DNA of 64,000 bases, from assembly GCA_903901875.1 (NCBI GenBank), contig CAIUSO010000031.1, positions 1 through 64,000 of the forward strand, given 5' to 3'. The notes under the pieces are model-generated. The model was not told the DNA's origin, did no database searches, and saw only the letters and a list, made by a program, of their open reading frames with translations. Positions 2,579-15,118 of this stretch are shown here, one piece after another; the stretch's first letter is position 1; the number at the start of each line of letters is the position of its first letter. The position numbers were made by a program, and so were the translations under genes. Origin of the DNA: an uncultured Geobacteraceae bacterium. Its GTDB lineage: Bacteria; Desulfobacterota; Desulfuromonadia; Geobacterales; Pseudopelobacteraceae.

Positions 2579-3292
2579 TTCGGCGGTTCTTTTTCGTCCT
2601 TTTTGCCATCCTCGTTGCCGTAAAGTAGACTCAAGTCCCAGTTGCCTACAAATTACGGTTCTCCAACCGTCGCAACCTAATGGGGCTTGCCTATTAACGC
2701 TATTCCTGACCATTTCAATTTCTGTATCTGTAAGCGGTGTATCTACAAATGAAATCCAATCTTCTGGAATGGAAATGGGTAATTCGGCCGGTCGCATCTC
2801 TTCCACATCCGCAATGCGGTTCTGGCACGAAGACCACGGCCATTGTACTGCTGACGGCACAAGATTTGCTCTAACCGGATTCCCTTCAATGTATCGAACT
2901 ACAGTCAATAGGTGGTCATCATCCTGAACAATAAAACTCTTATACCGCCCCTGCCACACATGGCCGCTGGAATGGTAATGTTGGTGATAACGGCGGACAT
3001 GGGTTGTCGTCAGCCAATGCATCCATTTATTAAGCTGATCTGCCGCAGTCGGTTGAACGAGTAAATGAAAGTGATTAGGCATTAGGCACCAAGCAAGCAG
3101 CTTTACACCATTTCTCCCCTGTGCCTGAAATAACAGATCCAAAAAAGCGTTGTAGTCACCATCTTTGTGAAAGATTTTCTGCTTACTGTTACCTCTGTTG
3201 ATCAAGTGGTAAAAACAGTTGTCAACTAATGCTCTTGCGACCCTTGGCATTTTCAATGACCTTTCTTGCTATTTGGTGCCTGTCCCCTTATT
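2534..3292 (-). mobile_element. RAYT transposase element with inverted ends
   Basis: The element consists of one transposase gene bounded by AATAAGGGGACAGGCACC on the left (2534-2551, again at 2559-2576) and its exact inverse GGTGCCTGTCCCCTTATT on the right (3275-3292). An imperfect palindrome, CCGTAA...TTACGG at 2618-2658, lies inside the 3' end of the gene. Short inverted-repeat ends next to a solo Y1-type transposase are characteristic of REP-associated tyrosine transposases, which act on hairpin-forming REP sequences. A deleted derivative of the same element lies at 3562-3771. Confidence 0.75.
2576..3250 (-). CDS. REP-associated tyrosine transposase (Y1, IS200-like)
   Basis: The protein (about 224 residues) has the single-stranded-DNA HUH nuclease signature NHFHLLVQ near residue 62 and the conserved WQGRYKS and RYIEGNPVRA segments; the Tyr of the latter is the expected catalytic residue. 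These are diagnostic of the TnpA_REP/RAYT family, which cleaves and joins single-stranded REP hairpins. I chose ATG 3250 (MPRVARA) over the TTG two codons upstream because AAAGG lies about 10 bases before it. The gene looks intact. The 3' end of its coding sequence is also found, internally deleted, in the repeats at 3562-3771, so the element has produced non-autonomous copies locally. Confidence 0.88.
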   Translation of the reverse strand: MPRVARALVDNCFYHLINRGNSKQKIFHKDGDYNAFLDLLFQAQGRNGVKLLAWCLMPNHFHLLVQPTAADQLNKWMHWLTTTHVRRYHQHYHSSGHVWQGRYKSFIVQDDDHLLTVVRYIEGNPVRANLVPSAVQWPWSSCQNRIADVEEMRPAELPISIPEDWISFVDTPLTDTEIEMVRNSVNRQAPLGCDGWRTVICRQLGLESTLRQRGWQKGRKRTAE

Positions 3293-3561
3293 CACAGCCG
3301 TTTACCCTAATACACCTATGCCAATCATTACGCCACTCAGACCTGCCTCGGTTTAAAATATGTATTTCAAAACAGCCTATCTGTAAAAATGAAACAATAA
3401 CCAATATATTAGTTACTATTACAACATCGTACATACCAGTTCCAATCACATAAGTTAACAAAAATTTTACTCATGAGTATTCTGCAAACTCTATAATAAA
3501 CACACATATTAACGGGTACATATTTGCTGTTTACAATATACGAGGATGAATAAGGAGGATG
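3293..3561. other. AT-rich spacer, no gene
   Basis: This stretch between two REP-type units is visibly more AT-rich than the flanking genes, particularly about 3330-3540. No frame has protein-like composition, and the short open frames look random. I see no RNA gene. It is probably sequence left by mobile-element activity. Confidence 0.5.
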
Positions 3562-3771
3562 AATAAGGGGACAGGTACCTATTCGGCTGTTCTTTTCGTC
3601 CTTTTTGCCATCCTCGCTGCCGTAAAGTAGACTCAAGTCCCAGTAGCCTACAAATTACGGCTATTTGGTGCCTGTCCCCTTATTACCCCCCATCCTCGCT
3701 GCCGTAAAGTAGACTCAAGTCCCAGTAGCCTACAAATTACGGCTATTTGGTGCCTGTCCCCTTATTACCCC
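3562..3771. repeat. Deleted RAYT derivative with 82-bp perfect tandem repeat
   Basis: It starts with AATAAGGGGACAGGTACC (3562-3579) and continues with sequence closely matching the 3' end of the transposase gene (compare 2576-2658), then jumps straight to the right terminal repeat (CTATTTGGTGCCTGTCCCC). The unit 3608-3689 is repeated perfectly at 3690-3771. Each 82-bp unit holds the CCGTAA...TTACGG palindrome plus one terminal repeat. This is a MITE-like, non-autonomous element. Confidence 0.85.
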
Positions 3772-3839
3772 AGGATTTTTCAAGAAAAACCGTGAGTTTT
3801 TTCCTTGACCGCTGTATCACGACCACTTACCCTGTCCCC

Positions 3840-5195
3840 ATGACTTCTGACCTGACAACCGCACCCATCCCCCAACTTGTCCGCCGCCTGGCCATTCCAG
3901 CCGGTACCGGCTTCTTTTTCAACACCATGTTCAACGTGGTGGACACCTGGTACGGGGGGCAGCTTTCAACCAGTGCCCTGGCCGCCATGTCCCTGTCGTT
4001 TCCTGTTTTTTTTCTCATTCTGGCCATCGGCAGCGGCGTCTCCAACAGTGCCACGACCCTGATCGGCAACGCACTTGGGCGAAATAATACTGAAGAAGCC
4101 GGGCACTATCTGCTGCAATCACTCTCATTCACCCTGATCCACGCCCTGCTGTTGACCGGAGCCGGGCTGCTGCTGGCACCGCGCATTTTCATGATCATGG
4201 GGGCCCGGGGGGAATATCTGACCCATGCCCTCAGCTATATGAATGTGATTTTTTCCGGCACCGTTTTCTTTCTGCTCAACTATCTCATGAATGCCATACT
4301 CAACTCCCAGGGGAACACCGTCGCCTATCGCAACTTTTTGTGCGGCGGTTTTGTCCTCAACCTTATTCTGGATCCCTGGTTCATGTACGGCTGGTTGGGT
4401 GTGCCTCCCCTCGGCCTCGGTGGGATCGCCCTGGCAACCGTGGCCATTCAGTGCGGGGGAATGTTCTATCTGTTGAGCCAGCTGGTGAAAAGCGACAGTA
4501 TTCCCCCTTTTCGTCCCGTTGACCTATTACCCCGTCGGCAGTATTTTCTGGAGCTGTTCAAACAGGGGTTTCCCTCGGCAATGAATATGATGACCGTATC
4601 ACTGGGCATTTTTATCATTACCTGGTATGTGGGACGCTTTGGACAGCAGGCCGTGGCCGCCTACGGTATCGGCACTCGAATAGAGCAGATTGCACTGCTG
4701 CCGGTCATGGGACTGAACATTGCCGCCCTGGCCCTCACCGCGCAGAATTTCGGTGCGGAGCGTTTTGACCGTATCCGTGAGGCACTCCGGGTATCGCTCC
4801 GCTACGGCGTGATGCTGGCCGTCATCGGCACCGGTGCCGCTCTGCTCTTCAGCCGGGAACTGATGGGGTTTTTCAGTACCGACCCGGCGGTTATTGCCAT
4901 CGGCTCAGGGTTTCTGGCCATTGAGGCCTACGTACTTCCCGCCTATGTGCTTCTCTACGTCTGCACCTCCGTCATGCAGGGGATCAAACGACCACTGTTC
5001 GGCCTGGGTATCGGATTGTTCCGCCAGATTGCCGGCCCGGTCTGCCTCTTTCACATTGGCACAGTGGTTCTCAGACTTGGCTTGGCAGGAATCTGGTGGG
5101 GAATTTTCACCATAACCTGGCTCGCCGCCGGAATAGTCATTGTCTATGTTACCGGAACGCTCACCACTCTTGAAAAGGATCAGATACGACTATGA
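3840..5195 (+). CDS. MATE-family multidrug/cation exporter
   Basis: The product is an integral membrane protein of about 451 residues with some twelve hydrophobic segments and the two-fold MATE (NorM/DinF-like) pattern: an early segment with NTMFNVVDTWYGG and a matching second-half segment beginning FKQGFPSAMNMM. MATE proteins export cationic drugs or metabolites using Na+ or H+ gradients; the substrate cannot be told from sequence. I chose the ATG at 3840 (MTSDLTTAPIPQLVRRLAIP) because the upstream in-frame extension reads into the 82-bp mobile repeat and lacks family character. The stop overlaps the mtaB start (ATGA), so the two genes are probably translationally coupled. Confidence 0.88.
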   Translation: MTSDLTTAPIPQLVRRLAIPAGTGFFFNTMFNVVDTWYGGQLSTSALAAMSLSFPVFFLILAIGSGVSNSATTLIGNALGRNNTEEAGHYLLQSLSFTLIHALLLTGAGLLLAPRIFMIMGARGEYLTHALSYMNVIFSGTVFFLLNYLMNAILNSQGNTVAYRNFLCGGFVLNLILDPWFMYGWLGVPPLGLGGIALATVAIQCGGMFYLLSQLVKSDSIPPFRPVDLLPRRQYFLELFKQGFPSAMNMMTVSLGIFIITWYVGRFGQQAVAAYGIGTRIEQIALLPVMGLNIAALALTAQNFGAERFDRIREALRVSLRYGVMLAVIGTGAALLFSRELMGFFSTDPAVIAIGSGFLAIEAYVLPAYVLLYVCTSVMQGIKRPLFGLGIGLFRQIAGPVCLFHIGTVVLRLGLAGIWWGIFTITWLAAGIVIVYVTGTLTTLEKDQIRL

Positions 5196-6484
5196 AACGG
5201 GTAGCCATCAGCACTCTGGGGTGCAAAACCAATCAATTCGAATCGGCCGCCATGGTCGAACAGCTTTCGGCCGCCGGCTACGAAGTGGTCCCTTTCACCG
5301 CCCCTTCGGACATCTACATCATCAACTCCTGCACCGTCACCGCCCGCACCGATGCGGAAACCCGCCGCCTGATCCGCCGGGCGCGGCGGCTTAATCCGGC
5401 GGCACGTATTATCGCCACCGGGTGCTATGCCCAGGTAGCTCCCGGTGAACTGGAAAAGATGCCGGAACTTGACGTCGTTCTCGGTAACAGCGAGAAACAG
5501 ATCATTTCAGACCTGCTCAACGGCACCGCGTATCAGGTTTCCGACATAGCCGCCATCAGCCGCGCCGAGCCGTTGAACCTCACCAGCTTTGCCGAACATA
5601 CCCGCGCCTTCCTGCAGATCCAGAACGGTTGCAACTCCTACTGTGCCTACTGCATTGTCCCCTATGCCCGTGGTGCCAGCAGGAGTGTGCTCCCTGATGC
5701 GGTCATCGAAGGAGTACAAAATTTTGCCCTTTCAGGCTTCCAGGAGGTGGTGCTGACCGGCATCCATCTCGGTGCCTACGGGCTGGATCTCCCCTCCCCC
5801 ACTTCGTTGACGGAACTGGTACAGCGGATTGATGCAGTAAACATCATCCCCCGTCTCCGCATCGGCTCCATCGAGCCCAATGAGGTCACGGCAGAGCTGC
5901 TGGAACTGATGGCCACCTCCCCCCGCATCTGTCCACACGTGCATCTACCGCTCCAGAGCGGCAGCGATTCGGTGCTGGCCCGCATGGGACGCCACTACAC
6001 ATCCGGCTTTTTCAGGGAGCTGGTGAATACCGTTTCCGCCGCACTGCCGACTGTTTTTATCGGTGCCGACGTCATCGCAGGTTTTCCCGGAGAGAGTGAT
6101 GAGGAATTTGAAGAAACGGTGCGGTTGATTGAAGAGCTGCCCTTCTCCGATCTCCACGTATTCCCCTATTCCCTCCGCCCCGGAACCCGAGCGGCCAGTA
6201 TGCCGGGACAGGTGGTACCCCGGATTGTTACGGAACGTGCGGCCCGTCTCAGAAGCATCGCCACCCGGAAGAAGGCCACATTTTTCGCGTCATGTATAGG
6301 AAGGGAGTTTACGGTACTGGTACAGAGTTACGAAGATGTGACCGGTATCTGCCGGGGCATAACCACCAACTATATTCCGGTGGTTTTTCATGATGCGAGG
6401 GGGAGGGTGAACGAACTGGTCAGGGTTGTAATAGAGTGGGCAAGGGAAAACTCATGTTCTGCTCGTATTCTCCCCATTGAATAG
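5192..6484 (+). CDS. mtaB: tRNA t6A37 methylthiotransferase
   Basis: This radical-SAM methylthiotransferase of 430 residues begins STLGCKTNQFES. The N-terminal cluster-binding cysteines are in GCKTN, NSCTV and GCYAQ, and the radical-SAM motif CNSYCAYC lies near residue 147. A C-terminal TRAM-like segment follows. The short length and GCKTNQ opening fit MtaB, which makes 2-methylthio-t6A at position 37 of ANN-decoding tRNAs, rather than MiaB or RimO. It overlaps the MATE gene by 4 bases. It converges on the remains of a toxin gene downstream of jetD, with no obvious rho-independent terminator between them. Confidence 0.9.
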   Translation: MKRVAISTLGCKTNQFESAAMVEQLSAAGYEVVPFTAPSDIYIINSCTVTARTDAETRRLIRRARRLNPAARIIATGCYAQVAPGELEKMPELDVVLGNSEKQIISDLLNGTAYQVSDIAAISRAEPLNLTSFAEHTRAFLQIQNGCNSYCAYCIVPYARGASRSVLPDAVIEGVQNFALSGFQEVVLTGIHLGAYGLDLPSPTSLTELVQRIDAVNIIPRLRIGSIEPNEVTAELLELMATSPRICPHVHLPLQSGSDSVLARMGRHYTSGFFRELVNTVSAALPTVFIGADVIAGFPGESDEEFEETVRLIEELPFSDLHVFPYSLRPGTRAASMPGQVVPRIVTERAARLRSIATRKKATFFASCIGREFTVLVQSYEDVTGICRGITTNYIPVVFHDARGRVNELVRVVIEWARENSCSARILPIE

Positions 6485-6496
6485 ATTTATTGTGCC

Positions 6497-6577
6497 TCAT
6501 GATTGTCCACAATCAAAGGATAACACCAAATCTGCAGCATCAAGCTTGCGAACAGGTTCGTACGCGGGAGCACTCAA
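6497..6577 (-). pseudogene. Remnant of a TacT-like GNAT toxin N-terminus
   Basis: Reading from TTG 6577 in the +1 frame relative to the jetD stop gives about 26 codons, starting SAPAYEPVRKLDAADLVLSF and ending with DCGQS before TGA. GNAT toxins of the TacT/AtaT type typically begin (M/L)SAPxPL...FDCGxxSLDxWL, so this matches the first part of such a toxin, cut off just before the catalytic acetyltransferase domain. Its position, starting across the stop of the antitoxin-like sequence, is the normal overlapping arrangement of tacA-tacT pairs. The remainder of the toxin is absent; mtaB ends 12 bases further on. The call rests on motif recognition and no alignment was made. Confidence 0.6.
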
Positions 6578-6726
6578 CCCAGCACCCCCGGCTTGGTCAG
6601 CAATTCAGCCAATCTCGGTTTGGCTTGCACCGACCTGTCCATCGCTTGCTGAAAAGCTGTCCAGCTGATTTCGTCAAGTTCAAAACGGCACCGGTCTGCC
6701 AAGGTCTGGTTTGCTGCGGTAATACC
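6574..6726 (-). pseudogene. TacA-like (DUF1778) antitoxin C-terminus fused to JetD
   Basis: The last 50 codons of the jetD frame (about residues 409-458) include ANQTLADRCRFELDEISWTAF and end KPRLAELLTKPGVLG. This follows the C-terminal half of DUF1778/TacA antitoxins (typically ...LADRTRFxLxxExWxAFxxALDxPPxxxPxLxxLLxxPxxx), the part that wraps and neutralises the GNAT toxin. The DNA-binding ribbon-helix-helix half of TacA is not recognisable. It is in frame with jetD and followed directly by the toxin remnant. I therefore read it as a deletion that joined jetD to a former tacAT locus. Confidence 0.65.
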
Positions 6727-7950
6727 GGCATTGACGGGAGCGTATCTCGCAGGTATTTTATCTGCCCCGTTCAAAACAAGTGCAAACAGTACCGACTCAA
6801 CCCACCCGAAACCGATCCGTTCCTGCTCAAGGCGCAGCTGTTTACGGATCCGGTTATCCCGTAAATCATCATAGAGTGCCTGTTCCTCCCGGGTGAGCCG
6901 GGACAAATCCCGGAGGGATTGTTTTTCTTCCTCTCCCCACTGCTCTTCGAAGGCCATCAGCGTGGCTCGATCCATCAGAAACGATTCCACCTGGGGAAAA
7001 TGACTCCGGAGCTGATCGAGAATGGCAAAACCGTGGGTGTCGATATCGCCCCAGTAGTACAAAGGGTGTGAATGGAGCCAGGGGGCATCCCGTACCGCTT
7101 CAAATCCGTATCCGGCACCAAAAATCACCATTCCCCCGGCAACTTCGGGAAACGCAAGGAAGTTAATTTCGTTTTCGGTCACAAATATCCGGCTAACGTC
7201 AGGAGCAAGCAGGGCAAAACTCTCGGCATCCAGGGTAATATCCCGGGCAAAGCCACCAGCCACGGGAGAGTAGCGAGGGCCAAGAATTCGGAAACGGACC
7301 AGGTGCGGTTTATCCAAAAAGCCGTAACGTCGGGCAAAGCGGCTCGTTCCGACCATTTCGCAATTGATGGCTTCGGGCGGGAGCACCATATCCAGCAGCT
7401 CTGACAACACCCCCCGATGTGCTTCGATAAATTTGCTGTGTATTCCGGGAAGATCCACCTGGCGCAGATACCGCCCCGGCATCGGATGCTGTTCGACCCA
7501 GGCGACCAGTGCCAGCAGTTTGTGCCACTCATCCACCAGTTCCACTGCCCGTAATGGCCGTTTGACCAACCAGGGGAGAAGACGCGGCTCCCGGAGGCGG
7601 GTTTCATCTACCAGTCCGGCGAAGCGGGCAAGCACGCGCAGCTTGCCGATACAGCCACAGGCAGCCTCCCGTGTATCAATCCAGACCGACCGGGGAATTG
7701 TATTTGCCCCGAATAACCGGTGTCGAAAATACCCCATCTCCACCCGAAAGTACGACAGGGCACGAAGTTCACTGATCCACACCCGTACGTCATCAAAATG
7801 GTCAGAAATTTCAGCCGACGTGGGAGCTTTCAACGTCAGACGCCTTGGAAACAGCGATTCACCAGAAACCAGCGAAGCCAGAATATCTCCCCGATCCCAC
7901 AACTTTTGCAGCTGCTCGCGCAGGTTCCCTGGTCGGGTCCATCCGTTCAC
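6574..7950 (-). CDS. jetD: Wadjet protein JetD (Toprim nuclease), C-terminally extended
   Basis: The protein has 458 residues. The N-terminal DUF3322-like part is followed by a DUF2220/topoisomerase VI-A-type Toprim domain, with the expected acidic residues in VTENEINFLAFP and in YYWGDIDTHGFAI (the DxD). JetD cleaves circular DNA that the JetABC loop extruder has reeled in. The usual JetD end (LEQERIGFGWVESVL) occurs near residue 388, so the last 70 residues are extra; about 50 of them resemble the C-terminus of a TacA-type antitoxin. The start is GTG, overlapping the jetC stop as GTGA. Whether the extension affects nuclease activity is unknown. Confidence 0.9.
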   Translation of the reverse strand: MNGWTRPGNLREQLQKLWDRGDILASLVSGESLFPRRLTLKAPTSAEISDHFDDVRVWISELRALSYFRVEMGYFRHRLFGANTIPRSVWIDTREAACGCIGKLRVLARFAGLVDETRLREPRLLPWLVKRPLRAVELVDEWHKLLALVAWVEQHPMPGRYLRQVDLPGIHSKFIEAHRGVLSELLDMVLPPEAINCEMVGTSRFARRYGFLDKPHLVRFRILGPRYSPVAGGFARDITLDAESFALLAPDVSRIFVTENEINFLAFPEVAGGMVIFGAGYGFEAVRDAPWLHSHPLYYWGDIDTHGFAILDQLRSHFPQVESFLMDRATLMAFEEQWGEEEKQSLRDLSRLTREEQALYDDLRDNRIRKQLRLEQERIGFGWVESVLFALVLNGADKIPARYAPVNAGITAANQTLADRCRFELDEISWTAFQQAMDRSVQAKPRLAELLTKPGVLG

Positions 7951-10900
7951 AGCTGCCTCGCCTTTTCTTCCCGATATTCCTCAATGGAAAGATTACGCAA
8001 CCGGGAGTCACGGCCATCCTCATTCTGGACAAAGCCCACACTGGAGACAAAGGGCTCTATAATATGAATTTTCTGGAGCGGAGTGACAATCAGAAGTTGC
8101 AGGTTGAGTTGGGCAAACAGCCGAAGGCCGTACTGTGCCGACTCATCCGAACCACGACCAAACGCCTCATCTATCACCACAAATCGGAAGGTGCGGGAAC
8201 GGACGGCACCCCATTCAAGTCCAAACTGATAGGCAAGGCTTGCCGCCAAAATGGTATAGGCGAGTTTTTCCTTCTGCCCCCCCGATTTGCCACCGGAGTC
8301 CGAGTAATGTTCATGTTCACTGTTATCCTCACGCCACCGTTCACTGGCTGCAAAGGTATACCAGTTACGCACATCGGTGACCTTGACGGTCCAGCGGCGG
8401 TCTCCTTCTGCCTGCCCGTCCCGGCCACGAAACCGTTCGATGATCTGCTTGACCTGCAGGAACTTTGCCTCCGAATACTGACTGTCATCAGAGCCGGTAA
8501 TGGCCCCTTCGGTGCAGCTGCGCAACTCACCCTGGAAATCGCGGATATCGGCGTCGGGGGTCAGCTGGGCCTCCAGAACGATATATCGGCCCGGATTATA
8601 ATCAATCTGATTGAGGGATTCGTTGATCCGCGTGATGCGATCTCTGATGGTTTCCCGTTCCCGTGCCAGCTGTGACTGAAAATTGGCCACCTCACGAATG
8701 GTATTTTCATTGAGCAAATCCTTGAACCGTGTTTCAAAACGGGGCAGGTCATCGGACCTCAACTTTTCAAGCATGGCCCGATACTCGGCAACCGCATCAA
8801 TGGCCACATCAACTTCCTGGGTGTCAAGGGGAAAGGAGGTACAATAGGCACGCATGGCGTCAATAATCCGGTCACGTAACCGATCTATTTTCTTGGTTTC
8901 CGTTTCAATTTTGCCCTGCAGCCACTCCCGCATGTCCCGCTCCCGGTTATCGCAGGATTCAACGGACAGGGTATGCTCTCCGAGTGCTTCGCCACGCATG
9001 GATTCGAGACGGTCAAAAAAGGTGGACCGTTCGGCTTGTCCAGGTGCCTCCAGCAGCAACATGGTGTGCTGGCGCAGCTCTTCGGCCGCTTCCCGCCTGG
9101 CCTGGGTAGCCCCCAGTTCCCGCGCCTTCTTTTCCCTCTCTTTTTCCGCGTCTCCCAGTTCTCCCTGGAGTGATTTCAAGCGCATGGTCAGGCTGTGCAA
9201 GAGATCGGAGGCCGCTTCAAGCTGCTTCTTTTCGGAATCAAGCCGAGCCAGCTCCACAACCAGCGATTGCCAGTCCAGCTCACTGAAATCAAGATATTCG
9301 TCAAGTTTTGACAGCGTATCGAGACGGTCCTTGCTTGTACTGTGTTCTTTCTGTAACGTCCCCATCAACTGGAGCAGTTCACCCAGCTGGGCCTCCAGTG
9401 CCCGTGACTTCCCTTCCAGCACGGCAATCTTCTCGCTATTGGTCCAGCCAAGAACGAATCGATGGCGGTCATCGATCCTGAACCGGTCATCTTTTTCATG
9501 GCGCTCACCGGCACCCTTGATCTGCCCGGCACGACTGATGGCTCGGCTCTCCCGCCGAAATTGTTCCTGGGTCAGACAGCAGGCCACATCGAAGCGGTGG
9601 GCCAGTTCACGCTCCAGCCAGTCATAAAACGGCGAATCCGGCTTGATTGCCAGCTTTCGCGCCAATGAATCCCGATGGAGTTCCGGGAGATCACCCCGCT
9701 GACCGGGGCGCACCCGAAAATAGACCAGACGCCCCTTAAGATGGGTTTGATCCACCCATTCGGCCACGGCACCATACAGATGGTCCGGCACCAGCAGTGA
9801 CAATCCAAAGTTACGCAGCAATCGCTCGCCTGCCCCCTCCCAGTCCCGTTCTTCCTCACGGAGCCGCAATAGTTCGCCGGCAAAGGGCATCTGCTCCTCG
9901 GGGAGCGACAGTGCCGTACAGAGGGCACTGCGCATGGACACCTGTTCGGCAGGAATATTACTCCGCCTGGTTTTTAAACTGGCAATTTCAGCAGCCAACT
10001 CTTCATGTTTCTGCTTCCCCTGGCGGAGATTGACACCATGCTCCGTGAGCCTGTTCTGGACATCGGCCTCCCGGATCCGTTCTGCTTCGGCCAAGGCCAG
10101 GAAATGGCGACGCTGTGCAAGGAAACCGTCCTCATCGGGGGCTGCGGTTTCACCTATGCCCCGCAAAAGCTCTGAATACCGGCTGGATTTTTGTTCACGC
10201 CTCAGACGTTCCCGTTCCCGCAGGCGGATTTCTTCAGCCAGGCGCTCCAGACGGTCGCCACCATTATCGGCAATACTCCGCTTCAATTCACCCTCTTCGC
10301 CTCTCAGGAAATCACAGCGTTCCTTGTGCCGTGTTGCCTGGAGATCCAGCCGTGCCCACTCTTCGGACAGCGAGGCGATACGTTTTTCTAACAGGGATAA
10401 TTTCAATGTGGCAAAAAACGATTTAAGTGCCTCCCGGCAGGCACGGAACTGTTCCCCCTCGGCAACCAGAATTCCGTGGCGTTCACAGTCGTTCACCAGC
10501 GGCGAAAGCAGTTCCACCTGTCGTTTGGCCTTCAACACCGCCTCGTGGGCACGGTTCAAATCGTCAAAGTGGTTCACCAGCGCGGTGATACGTGAGGCAA
10601 CATCAAACGGTTCCAGCATGTGACTCCGAACGAAATCGGTCAGATTCCCCACCGACTTCATGGATACGGTCTGATGGAACAGCTCCAGAGCCTGCTCGTT
10701 GTCGATGCCGAAACGGCGGCGAAACCAGGCACCGTAGGGGGGAAAACTCTCAAAAACCTCCGCTCCGATGCCCCGCAGTTTTTTACGGAGCTGGGAGATA
10801 TCCGAGCCGAAACGGGCAAAATCGGTGGCTATGGAGAGGGCCCGATCCATGCAGACAAAGAGACGGGCCGGCTGGGCCGACGCATCCTTCATCCAGAACA

Positions 10901-11315
10901 CCTGTGCCAGGGTCACCGCCTGACTGTAACCCGCGTTGTAAAAAGTCCCCAGAATCACCGAGTAGCTGTTATGATCACGCAATGCAACCGCTTTGACACT
11001 GCCACTCACGTCGTTCCGCTCCGACTTGTAGTGACCAAGAACGTACGAACGAAGCGTTCGCTCCTTGTTTTCAGCACCGGCAGCCTTATTGTAGGCAACA
11101 CGGTTGGCAGGAACGAGCAGTGTGGTTACGGCATCCACCAGTGTTGACTTGCCGGAACCGATGTCCCCCGTAAGCAGGGAATTTTTCCCCCCCGGATTCA
11201 GTATCCAGACCCGCTTGTCAAAGGTACCCCAATTATATACCTCCAGACGATGGAGCCGGAAACCGGACAGGGCATCATCGGCAACAAAATCGAGGGCTGT
11301 TTGCAGATCATTCAT
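7947..11315 (-). CDS. jetC: Wadjet protein JetC (SMC-like ATPase)
   Basis: The product is a MukB/MksB-like SMC ATPase of about 1122 residues. The Walker A motif GDIGSGKS lies at about residues 50-57. Long coiled-coil arms follow, with a hinge-like region in the middle. Near the C-terminus come the ABC signature SGGKSGGQKEK (about residue 1000) and Walker B FRFVVIDEAF. JetC is the motor that extrudes DNA loops in the Wadjet complex. I start at ATG 11315 because CAGGAGGTAC lies just upstream; the longer frame to 11465 is only read-through inside jetB. It overlaps jetB by 8 bases and jetD by 4. Confidence 0.93.
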   Translation of the reverse strand: MNDLQTALDFVADDALSGFRLHRLEVYNWGTFDKRVWILNPGGKNSLLTGDIGSGKSTLVDAVTTLLVPANRVAYNKAAGAENKERTLRSYVLGHYKSERNDVSGSVKAVALRDHNSYSVILGTFYNAGYSQAVTLAQVFWMKDASAQPARLFVCMDRALSIATDFARFGSDISQLRKKLRGIGAEVFESFPPYGAWFRRRFGIDNEQALELFHQTVSMKSVGNLTDFVRSHMLEPFDVASRITALVNHFDDLNRAHEAVLKAKRQVELLSPLVNDCERHGILVAEGEQFRACREALKSFFATLKLSLLEKRIASLSEEWARLDLQATRHKERCDFLRGEEGELKRSIADNGGDRLERLAEEIRLRERERLRREQKSSRYSELLRGIGETAAPDEDGFLAQRRHFLALAEAERIREADVQNRLTEHGVNLRQGKQKHEELAAEIASLKTRRSNIPAEQVSMRSALCTALSLPEEQMPFAGELLRLREEERDWEGAGERLLRNFGLSLLVPDHLYGAVAEWVDQTHLKGRLVYFRVRPGQRGDLPELHRDSLARKLAIKPDSPFYDWLERELAHRFDVACCLTQEQFRRESRAISRAGQIKGAGERHEKDDRFRIDDRHRFVLGWTNSEKIAVLEGKSRALEAQLGELLQLMGTLQKEHSTSKDRLDTLSKLDEYLDFSELDWQSLVVELARLDSEKKQLEAASDLLHSLTMRLKSLQGELGDAEKEREKKARELGATQARREAAEELRQHTMLLLEAPGQAERSTFFDRLESMRGEALGEHTLSVESCDNRERDMREWLQGKIETETKKIDRLRDRIIDAMRAYCTSFPLDTQEVDVAIDAVAEYRAMLEKLRSDDLPRFETRFKDLLNENTIREVANFQSQLARERETIRDRITRINESLNQIDYNPGRYIVLEAQLTPDADIRDFQGELRSCTEGAITGSDDSQYSEAKFLQVKQIIERFRGRDGQAEGDRRWTVKVTDVRNWYTFAASERWREDNSEHEHYSDSGGKSGGQKEKLAYTILAASLAYQFGLEWGAVRSRTFRFVVIDEAFGRGSDESAQYGLRLFAQLNLQLLIVTPLQKIHIIEPFVSSVGFVQNEDGRDSRLRNLSIEEYREEKARQL

Positions 11316-11961
11316 CGTCGGTACCTCCTGACTCTCCTTCCAGAACCGCCTGATATGACGCCAGTCGAAGATCAAAATCCGCCAGCCATTGGGCATCGAC
11401 AAACGACTTGAGAATTCGGCGAACTTCATACATGGCAGCCTGCTTCCCGGTCGATCCCCCCCCACTTTTCAATTGGCGCAGAAAGCCCAGATCGACTATT
11501 TTTGTGATATGAGTATCAACCGTATCCACCAGTTTTGCCTCATTACTGTTTTCCGGTAAAAAGACCCGGAGCAGTTCGACAATTTCATCACGGGAGAGAA
11601 CCAGCCGTGTTTCTCCGCCACTGGCATCAAATTCGGCCAGTTTTTTGCGCAGCAATGCCAGTAAAAGACTCACCGGGAACGACAGTGAGCGCCGTGCCAC
11701 CAGACGGGGCACCTTTGCCGGACTGTCGTCCACCGATTCGGGACGAGAACGGAGAAAGGCATGTCCCTCGGCATCGTCCAGCACCAGCTCCAGTCCGAGC
11801 AGAGAGACGTAATCCCGAACCCGGGCCTGCAATCGGAGTAGAGAATTCCAGAGCAATTCATTATCATCGTGATAGAGCACCCCCTTGAGCAGGGTAATGA
11901 CCAGCACCGATAAATCCTGTGTCGCCACGTTTGTTTCAGCTACCTGTTCCGCCATACTCAC
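11308..11961 (-). CDS. jetB: Wadjet protein JetB (KITE/MksE-like, DUF4194)
   Basis: The product has 217 residues and is mostly helical, with two predicted winged-helix-like regions. It corresponds to the DUF4194 (MksE/KITE-type) subunit that dimerises and bridges JetA with the SMC heads. Identification rests on size, on its position between jetA and jetC, and on family features such as PVSLLLALLRKKLAEF and SRDEIVELLRVFLPE. The start is GTG (GTGA overlap with jetA); an internal ATG two codons later is an alternative. A good Shine-Dalgarno site for jetC lies within its 3' end. Confidence 0.88.
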   Translation of the reverse strand: MSMAEQVAETNVATQDLSVLVITLLKGVLYHDDNELLWNSLLRLQARVRDYVSLLGLELVLDDAEGHAFLRSRPESVDDSPAKVPRLVARRSLSFPVSLLLALLRKKLAEFDASGGETRLVLSRDEIVELLRVFLPENSNEAKLVDTVDTHITKIVDLGFLRQLKSGGGSTGKQAAMYEVRRILKSFVDAQWLADFDLRLASYQAVLEGESGGTDDE

Positions 11962-13412
11962 CTCACAAATATTACCCGTGGCAATGTAGCCTGTTTCATC
12001 TGTTCCCGGCCATCGGGGCCGACCCCTTGCCAGGTAATACTATCGGTTATATTTTCATCGACTACCGACTTGAAGTCGCTGTTGGAAAGGTGAAGATAGG
12101 CCACCAGCTCCGACAGGCCGTTTTTCAGCGGCTCCAGCCGGCAAAGTTCACTGAGGGTAATCTGCGAACGCTCCTGCAAGGCATGGCGAATCTGCCGAGC
12201 CAGGTGGGCCGTATCAATAACAACCTGCCCGTAGAGCACCTCTGCATTCAGATCGGTATCACCCGCCTCCAGGGCCTCATTGGTAAGCACCGCCCTGACC
12301 GTCGGGGTATGCAGCGGTCGCTCCAGCGGCAGTTCTATATCGGCAGCGGCTTCTTCCAGGGTTGACATTTCTCCCGCCGGAGGGGATTCCCTGATCGCCA
12401 GAGCCTTTGCCTCAATGCCATGGAGGATATCCATGATACGGCGATTCTCCAACCACGCCTGATCATCGAGAAAGCGGCGTAACTGTTGGGAAAGCTGTGC
12501 CACCGTACGCTGGGTATGTTCTCCCGCCTCCAGCCAGTCATAATGGAGCCGCCGGGTTCGTGAGTCCGGTTTCAACTCCGCCACCGGTGGAAGTGACAGC
12601 ACACGTTCCAGCAGGGTTGACAACTCCTCCTGCCGTCGACTTGACATCAGAAAGTCCCAGAATGCCCGAAAACTCCTCCCCTGATCAGAATCGGCAATCA
12701 GATCCCGCTCCCCCATGATCTCTTCCAGAAGGGCACCTTTACCCCCATCCCACAGGGCTATCCGTTCCCGGACCCGCCGGTCAAGACCACGGAAATTCTG
12801 TTCCACTTCCCGAAAATCCGAGAGGAGCTCCCGTGCCAGCTGGATAAATTGCTGAAAACGTTCTTTCAAGGCGGTGGTATCAAGCAGGGGGATGTCCCCC
12901 GTCAGAACCCGGGCAATTTCCCGGTCTATATCGTCTCTCCGTTTCTGAAGCTCGGCAATGCGCGTCTGGGGATCGGTTTCACTCCCCTCGCTCATCTGCT
13001 TCAGCAGTTCAAATAATGTGAGCAAGCGAGATTCAGTACCGACAAAACTCCGTTCCGTAAGGGTGCCGAGCCAGGCGATGGCTTTCTCGGCGGGAGGAGT
13101 CAGGTCGAAATTCGGTTCATCGGAACCGTGGCGGTAAAACTTCCGAAGCCACCCCTTGTCGTTGGCAGCCCAGTCATTCAGATAGTCCAGTGGAGGCCGG
13201 GGAAAGGCATTGTCACCCAACCGTTCCCGCAGAACAAACAGCTCGTCCTTCAACGCCTCCACCAGATCCTCCTGCGCCATTACCCGCAGATTGGGCACAA
13301 GATAGACGCGGTGCAGAAAACTTGCAATCAGCGGAGCGTGGTCGGAGCGAAGCAGCTTCCAGGCGGGGTGGCTCTGACGGAGCAGTTCCAGGGTGGAAAA
13401 GTCCATGTTCAT
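11958..13412 (-). CDS. jetA: Wadjet protein JetA (kleisin/MksF-like, DUF3375)
   Basis: The protein has about 484 residues and starts MNMDFSTLELLRQSHPAWKL, the typical DUF3375/JetA opening. The N-terminal winged-helix region precedes a helical bundle and coiled coil (about 150-250, rich in RIAELQKRRDDIDREIAR-type heptads) and a C-terminal winged-helix segment. It is the kleisin subunit closing the JetC ring. I place the start at ATG 13412, which overlaps the recJ stop as ATGA; the frame upstream runs 19 codons inside recJ and has no family character. The overlap implies that jetA is translated from a recJ-containing message. Confidence 0.9.
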   Translation of the reverse strand: MNMDFSTLELLRQSHPAWKLLRSDHAPLIASFLHRVYLVPNLRVMAQEDLVEALKDELFVLRERLGDNAFPRPPLDYLNDWAANDKGWLRKFYRHGSDEPNFDLTPPAEKAIAWLGTLTERSFVGTESRLLTLFELLKQMSEGSETDPQTRIAELQKRRDDIDREIARVLTGDIPLLDTTALKERFQQFIQLARELLSDFREVEQNFRGLDRRVRERIALWDGGKGALLEEIMGERDLIADSDQGRSFRAFWDFLMSSRRQEELSTLLERVLSLPPVAELKPDSRTRRLHYDWLEAGEHTQRTVAQLSQQLRRFLDDQAWLENRRIMDILHGIEAKALAIRESPPAGEMSTLEEAAADIELPLERPLHTPTVRAVLTNEALEAGDTDLNAEVLYGQVVIDTAHLARQIRHALQERSQITLSELCRLEPLKNGLSELVAYLHLSNSDFKSVVDENITDSITWQGVGPDGREQMKQATLPRVIFVR

Positions 13413-15118
13413 GGAGTGCACCCCCGGATCGCCTTGATGCGGAGTTGCAGGGTGGTGATATTGTTCCACCGGTTACCTTCGGGGAAGAAGGCGATATCAA
13501 GTATCCCGTCGGTAGAGATATCTGCCTGGCGAAAGGCTATTGCGTTAAAGCTTTTCCCCTGTGCCAGCACCCGAAGCTTGAGATGGCCGTCTCCCACCAC
13601 CCGCCGTTCGCTCACCGTGACACCACGCAGCATGAACGTCGGTTCAGGATTGCCGGAGCCGAACGGTTCCAGCCGTTGCAGCTCTTCGGCAAGGGCCAGA
13701 TCCAGCTCCTTCGGATCGACGACGGCGTCAATTGCCAGAGAGGGCAACAGCTCCCCCGGGCCCAGCACCTTGAGGGCTTCCGCCTCGAAGGCGGCCACAA
13801 AGCCATCAATACGGTCCTCCGGCAAACCGACACCGGCTGCGTACCGATGGCCGCCGAAGCGAGTCAGGTAGCCGGCACAGCCATTCAGGGCTTCCAGCAG
13901 ATGGAAACCGGGGATGCTCCGCCCCGACCCCTTGCCGTACCCCTGTTCATCAATGGCAATCAGGATGGTGGGGCGATGGTAACGCTCCACGAGCCGGGAG
14001 GCGACGATGCCGATGACCCCCTGATGCCACTCCCGTGATGCGAGGACAATACTCCGACAGGCTGGATGGAGGCCGCTCTCCTCCACCAGGGTAATGGCCT
14101 GTTCGAGGATACTTTTTTCAACGATCTGTCGCTCGGCATTCGCTGCGTCAAGCTCGTCGGCAATGCGGGTATTTTCCCGTTCATCAATCCCCAGCAGCAG
14201 ATCGACTCCCGGCACGGCACTTTCCATGCGCCCGGCAGCGTTCAGTCGTGGGGCCAGCCGGAATCCGACCTGACCGCAGGTGACCCCGTCGGTCACTCCG
14301 GCCACCCGTTTCAAGGCGGCAATACCGGCCCGCCCCCCCTGTTCAAGTTTTTGCAGGCCAAAATAGGCATACATCCGGTTCTGGTCTTGGAGCGGCACCA
14401 CATCGGCGATGGTACCAAGGGCCACCAGATCAAGCCAGTCACGCAGATCCGGTTCTTGACCGGGGGCAAAGAGCCCCTCTTTCCGCATCCGGCTCCGGAG
14501 TGCCACCAGCAGATTAAAGGCCACGCCTACCCCGGCAAGCAGTTTGAACGGATAGGCACACCCCGGCTGCAGCGGGTTGACAACGGCAACGGCATCGGGA
14601 ATAACCATACCCGGTGTGTGATGATCAAGTATGATCAGGTCAACAGCGGCCTGGCGGCAGAAGGCTGCCTCCGCCACCGAGACGATCCCGCAATCTACGG
14701 AGATAACCAGCGTCGCCCCCCCATCGAAGATTTGCTGAAGAGAGTCACGGTTTAATCCATAGCCGTCATCAAAGCGATTTGGAATAAAATAGCCGCAGTC
14801 AGATCCAATCTGCCGGAGAAAGGATACCAGCAGTGCCGTACCGCTGATACCGTCAACATCATAATCGCCGTAGATACAGATCCGCTCCCCCGCTGTGCGA
14901 GCCCGCACCACCCGCTCAACCGCAGCCTCCATACCTTTCAGGGAAAAGGGATCTCGCATGGCAGAGAGAGCCGGTTTCAGAAAGAGAGCCCCACCCTGAA
15001 CCGTGTCAATCCCCCTGCCCTTGAGAATCAGAGCCATGAGTCGGCTGATGCCGAGGGCGGAGCGGAACGTCTCAATGTCCGATGTCACCGGTGTTGCTAT
15101 CTGCCATTTCTTTTCCAT
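13409..15118 (-). CDS. recJ: Single-stranded-DNA exonuclease RecJ
   Basis: This DHH/DHHA1-family 5'-3' single-strand exonuclease has 569 residues. All expected motifs are visible: YGDYDVDG (motif I, near residue 84), a central SVDCG, LDHHTPG (DHH), the NPLQPG stretch and the DHHA1 signature GGHRYAAG (near 417). RecJ works in RecF-pathway recombination, mismatch and base-excision repair. It is slightly short but complete. It is separated from the secDF/TPR block by a strong terminator and followed without a gap by jetA (ATGA), so it heads a recJ-jetABCD transcription unit. A weak GGGGA lies upstream of the ATG, and no clear promoter was recognised in the short space available. Confidence 0.93.
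   Translation of the reverse strand: MEKKWQIATPVTSDIETFRSALGISRLMALILKGRGIDTVQGGALFLKPALSAMRDPFSLKGMEAAVERVVRARTAGERICIYGDYDVDGISGTALLVSFLRQIGSDCGYFIPNRFDDGYGLNRDSLQQIFDGGATLVISVDCGIVSVAEAAFCRQAAVDLIILDHHTPGMVIPDAVAVVNPLQPGCAYPFKLLAGVGVAFNLLVALRSRMRKEGLFAPGQEPDLRDWLDLVALGTIADVVPLQDQNRMYAYFGLQKLEQGGRAGIAALKRVAGVTDGVTCGQVGFRLAPRLNAAGRMESAVPGVDLLLGIDERENTRIADELDAANAERQIVEKSILEQAITLVEESGLHPACRSIVLASREWHQGVIGIVASRLVERYHRPTILIAIDEQGYGKGSGRSIPGFHLLEALNGCAGYLTRFGGHRYAAGVGLPEDRIDGFVAAFEAEALKVLGPGELLPSLAIDAVVDPKELDLALAEELQRLEPFGSGNPEPTFMLRGVTVSERRVVGDGHLKLRVLAQGKSFNAIAFRQADISTDGILDIAFFPEGNRWNNITTLQLRIKAIRGCTP

Follow-up and report, generated by a model that had tools for sequence, protein, structure and literature searches.

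The window, the whole 64,000-nucleotide stretch of DNA analysed here, comes from an uncultured Geobacteraceae bacterium whose draft assembly has 169 contigs. It carries a jetABCD defence operon in which the jetD frame runs on, without a stop, into the remains of a tacAT toxin-antitoxin pair, and on the other side of these remains lies a convergent mtaB-like gene. The features are listed in the table below.

Table. Features of the jetD-mtaB region, with positions in the window
Feature	Positions	Strand	Basis or remark
JetD open reading frame	6574-7950	minus	one open frame, 458 aa
jetD proper (residues 1-388), nuclease subunit of type I Wadjet	6787..7950	minus	PF11795 + PF09983; PADLOC JetD1
jetC, jetB and jetA, directly upstream of jetD	7947..13469	minus	PADLOC, nearly full-length profile matches
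Former jetD 3' end and spacer, now a linker (about residues 389-405)	6735..6786	minus	aligned with sister locus L020
tacA (DUF1778/PF08681) C-terminal part, in frame with jetD	6574..6734	minus	PF08681 match; own stop TGA 6574-6576
tacT (GNAT toxin), first 26 codons, then stop	6497..6577	minus	TTG start overlaps tacA stop
mtaB-like tRNA methylthiotransferase gene, convergent with jetD, intact to its stop	5192..6484	plus	84% aa identity to sister

PADLOC was used to identify the defence genes, and gave E values of 0 for JetC1, 1e-92 for JetB1, 9e-222 for JetA1 and 3e-148 for JetD1, the last over JetD residues 2-390. Judged by these matches, jetABCD is a complete type I Wadjet operon. JetD is reported to be a dimeric CAP-Toprim nuclease under the control of JetABC (PMC10586767), and both domains of a type I Wadjet JetD are found in the window's protein: the N-terminal, CAP-like DUF3322 (PF11795) at residues 7-187, with 175 bits in Pfam, and the C-terminal, Toprim-type JetD_C (PF09983) at residues 210-387, with 196 bits. 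The conserved core motifs ENEINFLAFP, YYWGDIDTHG and LRLEQERIGF are present. Because the JetD_C match reaches position 178 of the 179 in its profile, the whole of JetD has been read by about residue 388, where a first-pass annotation of this DNA had also placed its normal end.

The frame then continues for 70 residues. The first-pass annotation had seen the C-terminal part of a DUF1778 antitoxin in this extension, and the Pfam search agrees: TacA1 (PF08681, formerly DUF1778) matches JetD residues 406-451 with profile positions 30-75 of 80, at 29.6 bits against a Pfam cut-off of 21 bits (E 6.7e-7 in the whole JetD, 1.8e-8 with the tail alone). A search of NCBIfam gave no match. The tail is 85% identical in amino acids to residues 40-92, the C-terminal 53 residues, of an intact TacA from the same genus (locus L012 of genome G011). 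About the first 40 tacA codons are gone and profile positions 1-29 are without a match, which means that the N-terminal ribbon-helix-helix DNA-binding part is absent while the toxin-binding C-terminal part is present. In the structures of TacA, AtaR and KacA it is this C-terminal part that wraps around the toxin.

The toxin gene is cut shorter still. The translation of the tacT remnant is LSAPAYEPVRKLDAADLVLSFDCGQS, followed by a stop after 26 codons, and intact homologues have about 155-171 residues, so the window does not have the intact downstream GNAT toxin gene of a TacAT module. The 26-residue remnant was too short for Pfam, which gave no match. With tblastn it is 72-74% identical over 23-25 amino acids to the intact TacT of L012 (E 1e-4 in the whole-genome search and 9e-7 among the mtaB loci). 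The opening of a GNAT toxin in an overlapping frame had been described before and is there, but its frame is offset by +2 (that is, -1) relative to the JetD/tacA frame and not by +1. The right-hand break of tacT falls in a short palindrome-like GATTGTGGACAATC.

Window positions 6504-6731 align with the intact tacAT pair of G011 over 228 bases, colinear and ungapped, at 78% identity (178/228, E 5e-48), from near tacA codon 41 through the last ~52 tacA codons and the overlap to the first ~24 tacT codons. Since Pfam detects the tacA part, and tblastn and the DNA comparison the tacT part, the finding is real and not a chance match. Nine intact tacAT pairs of the matching subfamily were found within the order. 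Neither gene is whole in the window, tacA lacking its start and tacT everything after its first 26 codons, and deletions or a partial capture must therefore have occurred. A search of the rest of the genome found neither another copy of the fragment nor a donor for it, and viral contigs gave none either. Plasmids gave no match by DNA; by protein they gave five DUF1778 antitoxins of less than 45% identity, none of them spanning the JetD part. Repeats on either side of the fragment were looked for as marks of an insertion mechanism, and only a single 10-base direct repeat was found. The bases beside the fragment, at 6732-6764 and 6484-6503, do not match tacAT, and have no clear match in the sister locus described below either.

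JetD ends were read in a family-wide search and in 80 species-level loci. Where the end was readable, JetD stopped 2-22 residues past position 388 (in a few cases the count starts from a match that stops a little short of 388), with the single exception of L072, and none of these relatives carries a TacA-type tail. As the other readable JetDs, apart from L072, end normally, the TacA-derived tail is private to the window genome among the sequences searched, and the comparison of JetD lengths confirms that such a tail is not normal for JetD. In L072 (JAKFVQ010000021.1, a Candidatus Obscuribacterales MAG) JetD at 3001-4179 is extended in the same frame by 511 residues. The end of this extension matches RNase_H_2 (PF13482, E 1e-11), and the extension is unrelated to the TacA tail; it is either a JetD-nuclease fusion or an assembly join. 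G079 looked like a long JetD, with a 745-codon stop-to-stop frame, and was rejected when JetD was seen to end normally there. A literature search on JetD with toxin-antitoxin and fusion protein found none.

The closest JetD (77%) belongs to the sister locus L020 (CAIRBT010000122.1, from an uncultured Geobacteraceae MAG; L004/G042 is the same locus), which has the gene order of the window: jetC, jetD, convergent mtaB and a MATE-type transporter. The mtaB identity between the two extends over all 430 residues. In the sister, jetD ends with ...SVLSALGSNRV* at 4191 and the mtaB stop is at 4213, leaving a spacer of 21 bases with no tacAT in it. Between the aligned stretches the window has 281 bases (6484-6764) and the sister 27, and the tacAT fragment makes up 228 of the 281. 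Relatives of mtaB are found in 39/39 same-genus genomes. Among 30 same-genus mtaB loci, jetD stands beside mtaB only in the window and the sister, and tacAT only in the window. Also from the sister, locus L168 (G042 contig C12:2000-5000) holds a second, partial JetD_C match (C12:3390-3716, profile positions 34-134 of 179) in a 219-codon frame, which is perhaps a remnant.

Aligned at the end of jetD, the window and L020 differ by several substitutions and by a one-base gap at the sister's TGA. This gap shifts the jetD frame, which then meets no stop before that of tacA; the two alternative frames after residue 388 close after 4 and 8 codons. One frame of the three enters tacA in tacA's own frame, so that an in-frame join would arise by chance about one time in three once the stop was lost. 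It would be a different matter if a base were simply missing from the assembly at the jetD stop, with JetD ending normally and the tacAT fragment left untranslated. The gap does fall in a draft assembly, with a run of four G on one side of it and a run of four A on the other; on the other hand, several substitutions also separate the two spacers and so the gap could be real. We consider a sequencing or assembly error unlikely.

The best reading, to which we give a probability of about 85%, is that the read-through is a passive, recent scar, made of a decayed tacAT fragment and a lost jetD stop. "Scar tissue" was one of the two readings offered in the first-pass annotation, and it is the one that holds up best, with both tacAT genes broken and the tail in no other JetD among those searched. 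That annotation also supposed that a deletion had put the Wadjet operon beside a resident tacAT locus, and the absence of both tacAT ends would fit such an event. The sister makes this history doubtful, since its Wadjet already adjoins mtaB without tacAT and its short spacer partly aligns with the window's; nor does tacAT lie beside mtaB in the other 28 same-genus loci. The joining of Wadjet to a former tacAT locus by deletion is thus the part of the earlier account that fares badly, and we rate it as improbable, if somewhat less so than an error at the stop. With the sister's site empty and 28/28 other same-genus loci without tacAT, it is most likely that Wadjet was there first and that tacAT DNA later entered the space between jetD and mtaB and was then cut down, a polarity that rests on one sister genome.

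The simplest history of the scar would be as follows, in an order of events that we infer from the comparison with the sister. Wadjet would have stood beside mtaB in the common ancestor of the two. A tacAT pair or piece would then have been gained between jetD and mtaB in the window lineage, or lost cleanly in the sister, and most of it deleted, so that about 228 bases, spanning the last part of tacA and the first part of tacT, were left. In a separate event, the native jetD stop would have been lost through a small indel; the JetD frame would then have run through the short spacer and on, in the reading frame of tacA, as far as the former tacA stop. The resulting protein would be a working JetD with an idle, 70-residue passenger tail.

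A functional fusion was considered as well, in which JetD bears the toxin-binding part of TacA and neutralises a TacT, for example a plasmid-encoded one, or links Wadjet to toxin control. The toxin-wrapping part is retained, in frame and conserved, and no stop interrupts the frame over the 70 residues. For the 51 codons of the tacA piece compared with L012, dN is 0.05 and dS 1.79, and a single residue of the piece (R to C in ADRCRF) departs from all nine intact homologues. However, the dead tacT piece is conserved too (dN 0.16 and dS 1.08 over 24 codons), so a conserved tail is in itself no sign that the fusion is under selection, and we rejected conservation as proof of function. Either most of it dates from before the break, or the break happened not long ago, as far as these codon comparisons go; there may be weak selection on the tail, the tacA dN/dS being below that of tacT with small codon counts. 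AlphaFold2 was run on JetD with 28 aligned sequences. It predicted the body with block means mostly of 80-97 pLDDT and the tail at only 35-70, with the linker mostly at about 50 or below and residues 439-458 below 50; three short helices are predicted in the tail (410-422, 427-437 and 445-452).

The genome also offers little for such a tail to bind. With the adjacent toxin dead, the antitoxin part has no local target to neutralise, and no TacT of the matching subfamily was found in the genome. The intact tacAT that the first-pass annotation had thought worth looking for does exist elsewhere, as the only other PF08681 gene, a divergent tacA paired with an intact tacT of its own (C166:72587-73326), but it is not of the matching subfamily: its TacT is only 37% identical to that of the subfamily, which speaks against the idea that JetD binds a TacT encoded elsewhere. 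About 350 bases behind this pair, at L001 (G000:C166) 2616-3237, there is what looks by eye like a RelB/RelE-type pair. Neutralisation in GNAT-RHH modules is reported to be mostly cognate-only: PMC9431474 describes a single cross pair among four Klebsiella modules, and cites three Salmonella TacAT pairs as showing no cross-neutralisation. Together with the missing N-terminal ribbon-helix-helix part, which carries dimerisation, and a join seen in one genome only, this makes a functional fusion very improbable. Least probable of all is its strongest form, in which a newly formed Wadjet nuclease with an antitoxin tail would capture TacT toxins, for instance those of the plasmids under attack, and couple plasmid restriction to the neutralisation of plasmid addiction toxins.

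As a scar, the locus is an example of a defence gene that gained a protein tail by stop loss beside toxin-antitoxin debris, and a caution to annotators who might be tempted to call this frame a JetD-antitoxin fusion. Wadjet targets plasmids, and toxin-antitoxin addiction modules are common on plasmids. The finding would weigh more only if TacT binding by the tail were true, Wadjet being an anti-plasmid system.

Compared with known type I Wadjet systems, the window has the same two-domain JetD in a full jetABCD operon, and differs in that JetD reads on past the point where its relatives stop. With the GNAT-RHH modules (TacAT, AtaRT and KacAT) the tail has in common the C-terminal part of the TacA/DUF1778 antitoxins, and differs from them in the loss of the antitoxin's beginning and of nearly all of its toxin partner. 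The locus also resembles the toxin-antitoxin remnants and stop-loss read-through genes of bacteria, with pieces of both genes in their original order and a neighbour extended; what sets the window apart from these is that the extended neighbour is a defence nuclease, and that its frame happens to match that of the antitoxin.
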